Assembly: GCA_028821265.1 (NCBI GenBank)
Contig: JAPPGU010000082.1
Coordinates: forward strand, 1 to 64,000
DNA from: a bacterium
GTDB taxonomy: Bacteria > Actinomycetota > Acidimicrobiia > Spongiisociales > Spongiisociaceae
Length of the DNA: 64,000 bases
Direction: 5' to 3'
The position numbers were made by a program, and so were the translations under genes. Below are positions 29,183 to 32,830 of this stretch, piece by piece; position 1 is the stretch's first letter, and every line of letters begins with the position of its first letter. The notes beneath the pieces were generated by a model. It was not told the origin of the DNA. It searched no databases and saw only the letters and a list, made by a program, of their open reading frames with translations.

Positions 29183-29962
29183 TTAGGCGCGACCGGTGAC
29201 GAGGTCGAGGACGGCATCGTGGATGTCTCCGTTGGTCGCCAGGCCGGTTCCGGACCGGAACGATGGTTCTCCGGCCAGGTCTGTGAACCTGCCGCCGGCC
29301 TCCGAGAGGATGACAACCATCGGCGCCACGTCCCATGGGTTGACGATCGGGTCGAGCATGACGTCCACCCGCCCCGAGGCCACCAGGCTGTAACCGTAGG
29401 CGTCGCCCCATCCCCGCAGCATCATCGGCCCGGCCTGGAGGCGTTCGGCCATGTCCTCCGTGAGCAGGTCGAACCCGCTGGTGCACAGTGCGGCGCCCTC
29501 CAGGTCGGACCGGCGGCGCACCGATACAGCGCGTTCGTTCAGATAGCAACCCCGGCCCCGGCCGGCCGCCATGGTCTCGCCGAGGGCGGGGAGGTCTATG
29601 ACTCCCACAGCCACGCCGTGCTCGTCCTCGAGAGCGAGGAGCGTCGCGAACAGCGGGACGCCCCGGATGAAGGACTGGGTGCCGTCGATGGGGTCGATGA
29701 ACCAGGTGCGTCCTGACGACCCGGTGGTGTCGGCGAACTCTTCCCCCACGATCCCGTCGTCGGGGAAGAGCCGGGCGATCTCGGTGCGGAGGAGCCGCTC
29801 TGCCGCCCGGTCCGCCTCCGTAACCGGGCTCCCGTCCCCCTTGACCATCACCTCTGTGGACCCGTCATACCAACGCAGGGTGAGCTTTCCGGCCAGCCGG
29901 GCCAGGTGGACGGCCTGGCTGAACAGCGATTCCTCGACCGGAGGTCCGGCTGACCGGCTCAC
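29183..29962 (-). CDS. hisN: Inositol-monophosphatase-family phosphatase, histidinol-phosphatase-like
   Basis: 259 residues from a GTG overlapping the cimA stop (GTGA); an upstream open frame to 30043 is discarded. The metal-binding motifs of the family are intact: G-E-E-F at about 75, W-F-I-D-P-I-D-G-T-Q-S-F near 90, and N-P-W-D-V-A-P near 215. Length and the P-I-D-G-T-Q-S-F-I-R-G-V-P stretch fit HisN, the actinobacterial histidinol-phosphate phosphatase, but inositol-1-phosphatase or 3'-phosphoadenosine phosphatase cannot be excluded. Coupling to cimA supports an amino acid biosynthesis role. Confidence 0.8.
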   Translation of the reverse strand: MSRSAGPPVEESLFSQAVHLARLAGKLTLRWYDGSTEVMVKGDGSPVTEADRAAERLLRTEIARLFPDDGIVGEEFADTTGSSGRTWFIDPIDGTQSFIRGVPLFATLLALEDEHGVAVGVIDLPALGETMAAGRGRGCYLNERAVSVRRRSDLEGAALCTSGFDLLTEDMAERLQAGPMMLRGWGDAYGYSLVASGRVDVMLDPIVNPWDVAPMVVILSEAGGRFTDLAGEPSFRSGTGLATNGDIHDAVLDLVTGRA

Positions 29963-31560
29963 GGTCGGCTGCTGCTCGCGCCGGCCGGTTCCGCGCCGGC
30001 CCGGAGCAGGCCGATGACGATCCCGTCCGCCATCGCCTCCCACGTGGCTTCGATGACGTTCTCGTGCACCCCGATGGAGCCCCAGGTCGACGGGCCGTCG
30101 CTCATCTCGATGAAGACCCTCACGACAGCGGCCGTCGAGGCGGTGGCGTCCAGGACGCGCACGTTGTAGTTGGTGAGGCGCAGCGTGTCGAGCTGGGGAT
30201 AGTGGTGCTTGAGTGCTTCCCTAACGGCATGGTCGAGGGCGTTGACCGGCCCGTTGCCCTCGCCGGTCCTTATCACCCGCTCGCCCCTGATCACGATCTT
30301 GACCGTAGCCTCCGCCATGACCAGCGCATCGGATCGGTGCTCGGTCGAGACGCGGAACGACTCCAACTCGAAATAGTCATGCGACCATCCGGCGGCCTGC
30401 CTCAGCATCAACTCGAAGGATCCGTCAGCCGCCTCGAAGTGGTATCCCCGGTTCTCCATGTGCTTGATCTCGTCCAGCACCTCGGCGGCCTGGGCGCCGG
30501 TGAGCGCGATGCCCAGGTCCCGGGCCTTGGCGAGTACGGTCGAGCGGCCCGAGAGCTCCGAGACCACGGTGCGTGTCCGGTTGCCTACCTGAGCCGGGTC
30601 CTGGTGCTCGTAGGCGTCGGGACGCCGGGCCAGCGCCGAGGTGTGCAAGCCGGCCTTGTGGGTGAAGGCCGATGCGCCGACGAACGGACTGTGGGGGTCG
30701 AGGCTGACGTTCACGATCTCTGCGATGTGGTGGGAGATGGGCGACAAGATCTTGAGCCGGCCCGGTTCGAGTACCGGGACTCCCATCTTCAGCACCAGGT
30801 CGGGGAGGATGGTGGAGAGGTCGGCGTTGCCGGTGCGCTCTCCGTAGCCGTTGATGCACCCCTGCACCTGGCGGATGCCCATCTCGACGGCGGTCAGCGA
30901 CGAGGCCACCGCACAGCCGGCATCGTTGTGGAAATGCACACCTAGTTCGGCGTCCGGAAGGGCCTGCTGGACCCGGTCGATGGCGCCGGCGATGTCGGGC
31001 AGCAGGCGCCCTCCGTTGGTATCGCACAGGACCAGGCGCTCGGCGCCCTCCTCGAGTGCGGCGCGGAGCACTCGGATTGCGAAGTCGAGGTTCGACCGGT
31101 AGCCGTCGAAGAAATGCTCCGCGTCGAAGAAGACGCGCCGGCCGTGGCGTCTCAGGTACGCCACCGATTCGGCCACCATCGCGACGCCGTCGTCGAGGTC
31201 CGTCAGTAGGGCTTCCCGGACGTGGTAGTCCCACGCCTTCCCGACGATGCAGACCACGTCTGTCTCCGCTTCGAGCAGGTTGAGCATCTGCGGATCGCCC
31301 TCGACAGAGCGGCGGGGCCGGCGGGTGGCGCCGAACGCAGTGAGGGAGGCGGTCCGGAGGTTGAGTTCGGAACGTGCCCGCTTGAAGAACTCGCTGTCCT
31401 TCGGGTTGGCCCCGGGCCAACCACCCTCGATGTAGCCGACGCCGAGGTCGTCCAGCAGGGCGGCGATCCGCAGCTTGTCGGAGACGGTCAGCGAGATGCC
31501 TTCCTGCTGCGCCCCGTCGCGCAGGGTGGTGTCGTAGATTTCGAGTCGGGGATGTGCCAT
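29959..31560 (-). CDS. cimA: (R)-citramalate synthase
   Basis: 533 residues from the ATG behind GGAGG. CimA condenses pyruvate with acetyl-CoA to citramalate, leading to 2-oxobutanoate and isoleucine without threonine. The catalytic TIM barrel has Y-D-T-T-L-R-D-G-A-Q-Q-E-G near the N-terminus, D-x-E-H-F-F-D-G-Y, C-D-T-N-G-G and the metal site V-H-F-H-N-D-A. G-Y-G-E-R-T-G-N-A-D, with R-T-G-N, and H-K-A-G-L-H support the CimA/long LeuA-like branch. A C-terminal LeuA regulatory domain is present (about 400-530), which in relatives binds isoleucine. A leader peptide and attenuator lie upstream. Confidence 0.93.
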   Translation of the reverse strand: MAHPRLEIYDTTLRDGAQQEGISLTVSDKLRIAALLDDLGVGYIEGGWPGANPKDSEFFKRARSELNLRTASLTAFGATRRPRRSVEGDPQMLNLLEAETDVVCIVGKAWDYHVREALLTDLDDGVAMVAESVAYLRRHGRRVFFDAEHFFDGYRSNLDFAIRVLRAALEEGAERLVLCDTNGGRLLPDIAGAIDRVQQALPDAELGVHFHNDAGCAVASSLTAVEMGIRQVQGCINGYGERTGNADLSTILPDLVLKMGVPVLEPGRLKILSPISHHIAEIVNVSLDPHSPFVGASAFTHKAGLHTSALARRPDAYEHQDPAQVGNRTRTVVSELSGRSTVLAKARDLGIALTGAQAAEVLDEIKHMENRGYHFEAADGSFELMLRQAAGWSHDYFELESFRVSTEHRSDALVMAEATVKIVIRGERVIRTGEGNGPVNALDHAVREALKHHYPQLDTLRLTNYNVRVLDATASTAAVVRVFIEMSDGPSTWGSIGVHENVIEATWEAMADGIVIGLLRAGAEPAGASSSRP

Positions 31561-31612
31561 GCAAGCCTCCCTCCCTCTGTGAAGGCCGGCGGACGTTCGT
31601 TGCCAAATAAAG

Positions 31613-31636
31613 AACCCTGCGCCGGGGCGCAGGGTT
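31613..31636 (-). terminator. Attenuator terminator hairpin upstream of cimA
   Basis: On the minus strand AACCCTGCGC pairs perfectly with GCGCAGGGTT around a four-base loop, and CTTTATTTGG follows. This is an intrinsic-terminator layout, 53 bases before the cimA ATG and inside its leader, so it should regulate cimA rather than end an upstream gene. Confidence 0.75.
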
Positions 31637-31638
31637 GC

Positions 31639-31664
31639 GGGCACAGGGTCGTTTCCCTATGCCC
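31639..31664 (-). promoter_or_regulatory. Leader hairpin upstream of the cimA attenuator
   Basis: GGGCATAGGG and CCCTGTGCCC form a 10-base stem with one mismatch-type pair around a six-base loop, starting at the last base of the leader-peptide stop. Its second arm (CCCTGTGC) can also pair with GCGCAGGG of the terminator stem, offering the mutually exclusive foldings an attenuator needs. The exact switching scheme is inference. Confidence 0.6.
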
Positions 31665-31696
31665 TAATCGATAATGATCCCGGTGTGGATACTCAT
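31664..31696 (-). CDS. Isoleucine-rich leader peptide of cimA
   Basis: A ten-codon frame, MSIHTGIIID, ends in TAG directly before the leader hairpin. Four of ten codons are isoleucine, three of them consecutive. This is what ribosome-mediated attenuation needs for a gene of isoleucine synthesis. The ATG lies only a few bases after the predicted transcription start, so translation would be leaderless or nearly so, which actinobacteria allow. A longer frame from an ATG at 31723 would start inside the promoter and is less likely. Confidence 0.65.
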   Translation of the reverse strand: MSIHTGIIID

Positions 31697-31706
31697 CTCC
31701 GGCCCG

Positions 31707-31735
31707 AGTGTCGCTGATCCCATCCGGTATGTCAA
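31707..31735 (-). promoter_or_regulatory. Predicted promoter of cimA
   Basis: TTGACA (31735-31730) is a perfect -35 element, and GACACT (31712-31707) follows after exactly 17 bases as a -10-like element. Transcription should begin near 31700, just before the leader peptide. Confidence 0.6.
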
Positions 31736-31843
31736 CACCCAATCCGGAAGCCGCCGGTGGATCGCCGTACCGCGAACCCCGACCATTTAGCAGTCATCGG
31801 GCGGTCCGCGTAACCTCTGGATGACCTGAGCGGAGGTGATGAG

Positions 31844-32830
31844 GTGACCACGAGAAGGGTCTTTTCGGGGATCCAGCCCAGCGGTGACATCCACATCGGC
31901 AACTACATGGGAGCGCTCCGCAACTGGGTAGCCATGCAGGACGAGTACGCCACGGTCTACTGCGTGGTCGATCTCCATGCCCTGACCCTCCCTCAGGACC
32001 CGGCCGAACTGGCGCGAGCCCGGGTGCGGACCGCCAAGATCCTGCTGGCGGCGGGGATCGATCCCGGCCGCTCCCTGGTCTACTACCAGAGCCAGGTTCC
32101 GCAGCACGCCGAACTGTCCTGGATCATGGGAACCTTCGCCTCGATGGGCCAGCTGGGCCGGATGACCCAGTACAAGGAGAAGGAAGACAAGGGCGGGCAG
32201 AACCTGGGTCTGTTCTCCTATCCGGTGCTGATGGCAGCCGACATCCTGATCCACCGAGTGCATGCCGTGCCGGTCGGCAACGACCAGACCCAGCACCTCG
32301 AGTTCACCCGTGATCTCGTTGACCGGTTCAATTCCCGCTACGGGAACTTCTTCCCCGTGCCCGAACAGATAACCCCGCCCGTGGGAGCACGGGTGATGTC
32401 CCTGAAGGACCCCACCTCCAAGATGTCCAAGTCCGACCCGGATCCGAGCTCGCGGATAATCGTGACCGACGACACCGACACCATCGTCACCAAGGTCCGG
32501 CGGGCAGTCACCGACTCCGGCAAGCTGGTCGCCTACGACGTGGAGCGCAAGCCCGGGATCAGCAACCTGCTGGACATCCTGTCCGCGTTCACCGGCCGTA
32601 GCGTTCACGAACTGGCGGAGGAGTACCGCTCCGCCGGCTACGGACGGTTCAAGCAGACCGTTGCCGAGGCGGTGATCTCGGGGCTGTCGCCCGTGCGCCG
32701 AGCCTATCTCGACCTGGACGACCATGATGTGGAGCGGATCATGTCAGAGGGCGCCGAAGCGGCCCGAACCAGGGCAGAGGAGACCATGGCCGGCGTTCGC
32801 AGCCTGATCGGCCTCAGTCAGGACAACTAG
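31844..32830 (+). CDS. trpS: Tryptophanyl-tRNA synthetase
   Basis: 328 residues from a GTG; GGAGGTGATGAG lies upstream. The class Ic catalytic core has the HIGH-like G-D-I-H-I-G-N-Y near residue 14-21, the D-L-H-A-L-T segment, Q-Y-K-E-K for subunit contact, P-V-L-M-A-A-D-I-L for tryptophan binding, and K-M-S-K-S-D at about 195. It charges tRNA-Trp. The gene is divergent from cimA. Its stop overlaps that of the convergent CPBP gene within one CTAG. Confidence 0.96.
   Translation: MTTRRVFSGIQPSGDIHIGNYMGALRNWVAMQDEYATVYCVVDLHALTLPQDPAELARARVRTAKILLAAGIDPGRSLVYYQSQVPQHAELSWIMGTFASMGQLGRMTQYKEKEDKGGQNLGLFSYPVLMAADILIHRVHAVPVGNDQTQHLEFTRDLVDRFNSRYGNFFPVPEQITPPVGARVMSLKDPTSKMSKSDPDPSSRIIVTDDTDTIVTKVRRAVTDSGKLVAYDVERKPGISNLLDILSAFTGRSVHELAEEYRSAGYGRFKQTVAEAVISGLSPVRRAYLDLDDHDVERIMSEGAEAARTRAEETMAGVRSLIGLSQDN

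Follow-up and report, generated by a model that had tools for sequence, protein, structure and literature searches.

Attenuators of ilvB, leuS and trp genes are known or predicted in Actinobacteria (PMC1262725, PMC10272879, PMC11857589, PMC13236596). In C. glutamicum, the ilvBNC attenuator (ilvB-II motif) combines branched-chain amino acid genes with a short peptide containing branched-chain amino acid codons, an upstream hairpin and a terminator, and the response is abolished by codon changes (PMC11857589, PMC10272879). Transcription starts there one base from the leader start codon, a measured precedent for a short 5' UTR (PMC11857589, PMC10272879). The ilvB1 leader of M. tuberculosis likewise possesses branched-chain amino acid codons (LVVI) in a short uORF followed by an intrinsic terminator; mutation of the codons abolishes induction (PMC13236596). 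For the citramalate synthase gene cimA of a bacterium of the class Acidimicrobiia (order Spongiisociales; GenBank assembly GCA_028821265.1, contig JAPPGU010000082.1), a first-pass annotation had proposed an isoleucine attenuator and remarked that a cimA-specific Ile leader is little described. No published cimA leader and no Acidimicrobiia leader peptide were found in the literature searched. A scan of the leader against Rfam returned no family at the gathering threshold, ilvB-II and T-box included, and a permissive scan yielded nothing relevant.

The analyzed window is a stretch of 64,000 nucleotides, in which the leader and cimA lie on the minus strand (Table 1). Promoter elements, ten-codon peptide, a hairpin overlapping the stop codon, and a perfect ten-base stem with T-rich tail ahead of cimA had all been described in the first-pass annotation, and each was recovered exactly. 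Four codons of the peptide MSIHTGIIID encode Ile, and three of these are consecutive. Hairpin 1 begins with the last base of the stop codon TAG and is separated from the terminator by two bases; the distance from the start codon to the terminator is about 85 nt, and a conserved unpaired core is absent. The leader folds at -63.2 kcal/mol against a shuffle mean of -47.3 kcal/mol (z -4.2), i.e. better than 200 out of 200 shuffles, and its terminator is the only terminator-like site between positions 31300 and 32000.

Table 1. Features of the cimA leader and the presumed regulated gene in the window.
Feature	Position	Strand	Remarks
-35 element	31735-31730	-	TTGACA; 17-nt spacer to -10
-10 element	31712-31707	-	GACACT; 10 nt before leader ATG
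Whole promoter	31707..31735	-	match to promoter pattern and conservation in relatives
Leader peptide ORF	31696-31664	-	MSIHTGIIID*; ATG AGT ATC CAC ACC GGG ATC ATT ATC GAT TAG
Regulatory Ile codons of leader ORF	31678-31670	-	plus one Ile codon at 31690-31688
Hairpin 1	31664-31639	-	10 bp; arm 1 31664-31655, loop 31654-31649, arm 2 31648-31639
Intrinsic terminator	31636-31613	-	perfect 10-bp stem; arm 3 31636-31627, loop 31626-31623 (4 nt), arm 4 31622-31613
Terminator T-rich tail	31612-31605	-	CTTTATTT; directly after arm 4
Alternative antiterminator (predicted)	31613..31650	-	31650-31640 with 31623-31613; inner stem 31639-31636 with 31631-31628
cimA, citramalate synthase (presumed regulated gene)	29959..31560	-	ATG at 31560; TIGR00977, 657 bits versus cutoff 450

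The divergent neighbor of cimA is trpS, whose start lies 147 nt from the leader ATG (window positions 31697-31844). In one genome of the comparison (G006), the attenuator is located about 100 nt further upstream, because inserted DNA of about that length separates it from cimA. The inserted DNA has inverted ends (GGGTACTGAAAA...TTTTCAGCACCC) and may be a small mobile element.

The first-pass annotation had suggested that relatives be compared for conserved Ile codons and covarying stems. Within the order, 81 genomes, including that of the window, were found to carry cimA, and the upstream DNA could be read for 79 of them; 80 further cimA loci were taken from named genomes, among them one of the same genus as the window (L033). 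All 79 genomes of the order with readable upstream DNA possess the arrangement in the same order: promoter, a peptide of 7 to 15 codons ending in an Ile run, stop-codon hairpin, terminator (0-7 nt past hairpin 1) and cimA. Among 83 distinct cimA leaders, for which ambiguous start, stop or frame choices had been ranked partly by Ile content, codons -2, -3 and -4 (counted back from the stop) encode Ile in 92, 87 and 90%, respectively. ATC and ATT alternate at these positions, so it is the amino acid that is conserved and not the bases. Leaders which keep the stem but have lost the Ile codons were looked for in the same set, and the attenuator interpretation was not contradicted. A promoter-like match of at least 8 out of 12 is present in 79 of the 83 leaders, as opposed to 1.9% of shuffles, and the spacer measures 17 nt in 73 of them. 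In 61 leaders the final base of the stop codon is also the first base of hairpin 1, and in all 83 the hairpin starts no more than three bases away from it.

Both stems show compensatory changes. When an explicit structure is imposed, both-side changes are seen among relatives in nine out of nine pairs of hairpin 1 and in six out of nine pairs of the terminator; the covariation score of 0.373 (0.214 for shuffled alignments) was reached by none of 500 shuffles and exceeds all slid controls. This explicit structure, also used for the covariance model, replaced an RNAalifold consensus (R1), which was dropped because it missed hairpin 1, whose columns MAFFT had split across gaps. Taken together, the sequence conservation indicates that the cimA leader is functional.

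Some cimA leaders deviate from the common pattern. In five leaders of one family (f7: L120, L122, L125, L136 and L161), Ile is kept only at -2 and -4, with peptide ends such as QILIT, SIVIT and SIGIT (INIL is also listed as -2 and -4), which suggests either that two Ile codons are enough or that sensing is weaker in this family. A minimal peptide, MNIIIII*, is present in the AT-rich marine Candidatus Actinomarina (L111, positions ~1910-1990), where it lies directly before hairpin, terminator and cimA.

The distance from the -10 element to the start codon is 6-11 nt in 79 of the 83 leaders. Combined with the known distances from a -10 element to the start site, this spacing predicts that transcription starts 0-4 nt before the leader ATG, i.e. 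that the ORF is probably near-leaderless.

A covariance model of leader and hairpins gave matches in 186 of the 247 genomes of the class, frequently two per genome. A less biased test is a second model restricted to stop codon, hairpins and tail: it starts at the stop codon and is blind to the peptide codons, and the peptides were read in the frame of the stop without selection on codons, i.e. free of the Ile-ranking bias. With the codon-blind model, leaders were also found before ilvB, leuB and leuA. Every match that was fetched and read had a branched-chain amino acid gene downstream of it (representatives identified by NCBIfam, the others by tblastn against representatives). The terminal codons change with the gene. 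They encode Ile before cimA (n=87), Leu in 100% at -2 to -4 before leuA (n=7), Val, Leu and Ile before ilvB (n=35), and Val and Ile before leuB (n=50), where Leu is almost absent; the background of Ile, Val and Leu together at codons -8 to -11 is 11%. Matches reach other classes of the phylum, where they lie before ilvB, leuB and, once, leuS. The latter is a two-hairpin leader, MRWNLLLR*, before the leucyl-tRNA synthetase gene (L317, G287:C87:7679-7742). The genome of the window itself contains a second leader (L194) before ilvB, MTGRSLVLVLM* (G000:C3:17276-17337, minus strand), with a covariance-model E-value of 5e-4, such values being rough. In five inspected Acidimicrobiia loci without their own cimA leader (L063, L062, L073, L081 and L099), cimA is preceded by leuB, and ilvE (identity checked) lies between the two genes in four of the five. 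Elsewhere in Acidimicrobiia, leuB has a Val/Ile leader with the hairpins GCGAACGCC and GACCGTCCACC, and this gene order fits a Val/Ile sensor ahead of leuB.

The same layout with codons matched to the gene makes amino-acid-dependent, ribosome-mediated attenuation very likely. Parts, their conservation and the codon-gene match are what sequence and comparison support, and on these grounds we hold it highly probable that the leader in the window attenuates transcription of cimA in a ribosome-mediated response to isoleucine; conserved layout, Ile codons and matching codons in sister leaders thus speak for the original proposal. Start site, ribosome stalling, readthrough and the RNA structure that carries the switch are what we infer beyond this. 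According to this model, the transcript would begin with the leader ATG or a few bases ahead of it, and its ten-codon peptide would be read by a ribosome. With sufficient charged tRNA-Ile, the ribosome would finish and leave, hairpin 1 and the terminator would fold, and most transcripts would end before cimA. When isoleucine is short, the ribosome would linger on the Ile codons that immediately precede hairpin 1. For the window's genus, the lingering ribosome could force hairpin 1 apart; arm 2 would then pair with arm 4 of the terminator, and transcription would continue into cimA.

The first-pass annotation had proposed that the segment CCCTGTGC pairs with either the first hairpin arm or the terminator arm. 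It can indeed pair with both, and an antiterminator is predicted in the leaders of the window's genus type (8 out of 83, near-identical sequences); in the other 75 leaders it is absent. In the window, the antiterminator is predicted only when arm 1 is masked. Arm 2 then pairs with arm 4 (-24.2 versus -18.1 kcal/mol), and the terminator probability drops from 1.00 to 0.14 or 0.00 when arm 1 is masked as by a ribosome at the last Ile codon or beyond. For the eight leaders of this type, the mean terminator probability is 0.11 with the freed arm and 0.97 with the arm shuffled; the corresponding values for the other 75 are 0.98 and 0.96. Outside the window's family, neither duplex energies nor an all-helix scan revealed conserved pairings 1:3, 2:4, 2:3 or 1:4, and none is conserved between the codon region and arm 3 or 4. 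At the stage when arm 4 has yet to be transcribed, arms 2 and 3 paired no more than in shuffles, and 96 further leaders (of ilvB, leuB, leuA and cimA) contain no conserved alternative pairing. Low terminator probabilities in some leuB leaders are an apparent measuring artefact, in which an outer tail pair was taken as stem; the terminator stem is intact in most printed folds of these leaders. Hairpin-stabilized pausing of the polymerase about 11 nt downstream of hairpin 1 was also considered and dropped, because the YG signal tracks the terminator arm and not hairpin 1.

Because it is absent in 75 of 83 relatives, a classical antiterminator does not appear to be the mechanism that is conserved; the leader in the window is a plausible classical switch by structure prediction, and the family as a whole would not depend on one. 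Even in the window, a ribosome on the first Ile codon of the run is predicted to leave hairpin 1 and terminator intact, and the switch is predicted only with the ribosome at the last Ile codon or beyond. A ribosome waiting at the stop would also favor readthrough, and therefore timing must be assumed in the classical switch.

Outside the window's genus, folding predictions show the terminator in almost every state, as would be expected of a constitutive partial terminator that merely sets the cimA level and to which the peptide is incidental. Such a terminator leaves unexplained, however, the conservation of Ile through synonymous change, the switch of codons to Leu or Val before other genes, and the fixation of hairpin 1 on the stop codon, and we regard it as very improbable. 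Instead of a translated attenuator, the leader could be a T-box, a riboswitch or a protein-bound RNA: actinobacterial ileS genes have T-boxes, and leuA has a LEU element of unknown mechanism (PMC1262725). Yet the conservation tracks codons, the leader is short and without a conserved unpaired core, and the best permissive Rfam score is 16.8 bits against a cutoff of 42, with no match at the gathering score; this explanation hardly deserves credence.

A closer competitor shares the input with the attenuator model, i.e. stalling at Ile codons, but proposes that the stalled ribosome blocks the terminator by proximity and that no antiterminator is needed. Hairpin 1, folded ahead of the stalled ribosome, would keep the terminator from closing by shortening the RNA tether, while a ribosome at the stop or departed would be too distant to act. 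In E. coli, a terminator is repressed when the ribosome is less than about 27 nt away from it, and not when the ribosome is more distant (PMC4824070). In the leaders, the median stop-to-terminator distance is 26-29 nt in all four gene types (cimA, ilvB, leuB and leuA), while a ribosome positioned at the first regulatory Ile codon would be 11-18 nt from the terminator when hairpin 1 is folded (edge and footprint positions borrowed from E. coli). In most leaders, 11 or 14 nt separate the first regulatory codon from hairpin 1, about one ribosome edge. The conservation of these distances suggests that the stalled ribosome may itself be what blocks the terminator, and the lack of conserved alternative pairing points in the same direction. 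On the other hand, the distance that counts across a folded hairpin is assumed, the threshold was obtained with a single E. coli terminator and a ribosome in motion, stop-to-terminator distances are 23-26 nt in 25% of the cimA leaders, and the free-arm-2 structure in the window's genus would oppose the idea. Blocking by proximity could be the conserved core mechanism, with the 2:4 pairing of the window as a local addition; we consider this possible, though it falls well short of our expectation for the isoleucine-responsive attenuator as such.

Building on that attenuator, we tentatively propose a modular family in Acidimicrobiia and some other Actinomycetota that would switch without an antiterminator: a hairpin fixed on the stop codon would bring the stalled ribosome close enough to block the terminator, and exchange of only the three to four codons before the stop would adapt the sensor to Ile, Leu or Val ahead of cimA, leuA, ilvB, leuB or leuS. 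The leader suggests probable control of the citramalate route to isoleucine in a large, mostly uncultured bacterial class. With near-constant geometry, interchangeable sensor codons and, in most cases, no textbook antiterminator, the more than 170 leaders form a natural series in which relief of termination by a stalled ribosome alone is directly testable. The leader could also serve as a compact part for amino-acid-responsive control.

The pyrBI attenuator of E. coli senses UTP via polymerase pausing, not an amino acid via codon stalling. A nearby ribosome prevents its terminator from folding, as considered above for a stalled ribosome (PMC4824070). The C. glutamicum attenuator has its transcription start close to the leader start codon, as predicted for the cimA leader (PMC11857589, PMC10272879); it controls ilvBNC and not cimA, the regulatory codons of its peptide MTIIRLVVVTARRLP lie well before the peptide end, unlike those of the cimA leaders, and it has a mutationally supported antiterminator overlapping the terminator, whereas most leaders described here have none. 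The M. tuberculosis ilvB1 leader is set apart, by description, by its length (+1 to +168), a proposed exclusive antiterminator and a different gene. Leaderless poly-Cys sORFs of mycobacteria, as far as they are described in PMC13236596 (after Canestrari 2020), share the codon run near the end of a short ORF and a biosynthetic gene downstream; they concern cysteine, and no conserved terminator hairpin is reported for them (PMC1262725), unlike the cimA leaders. As in trp-, ilv- and leu-type attenuators, a short ORF rich in end-product codons is present (83 leaders, with codons that switch with the gene), and an intrinsic terminator that covaries in relatives lies between leader ORF and structural gene. 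Membership of the strict classical type is tentative, because its antiterminator is predicted only in the window's genus; in its action, the cimA leader would resemble a ribosome-mediated attenuator.
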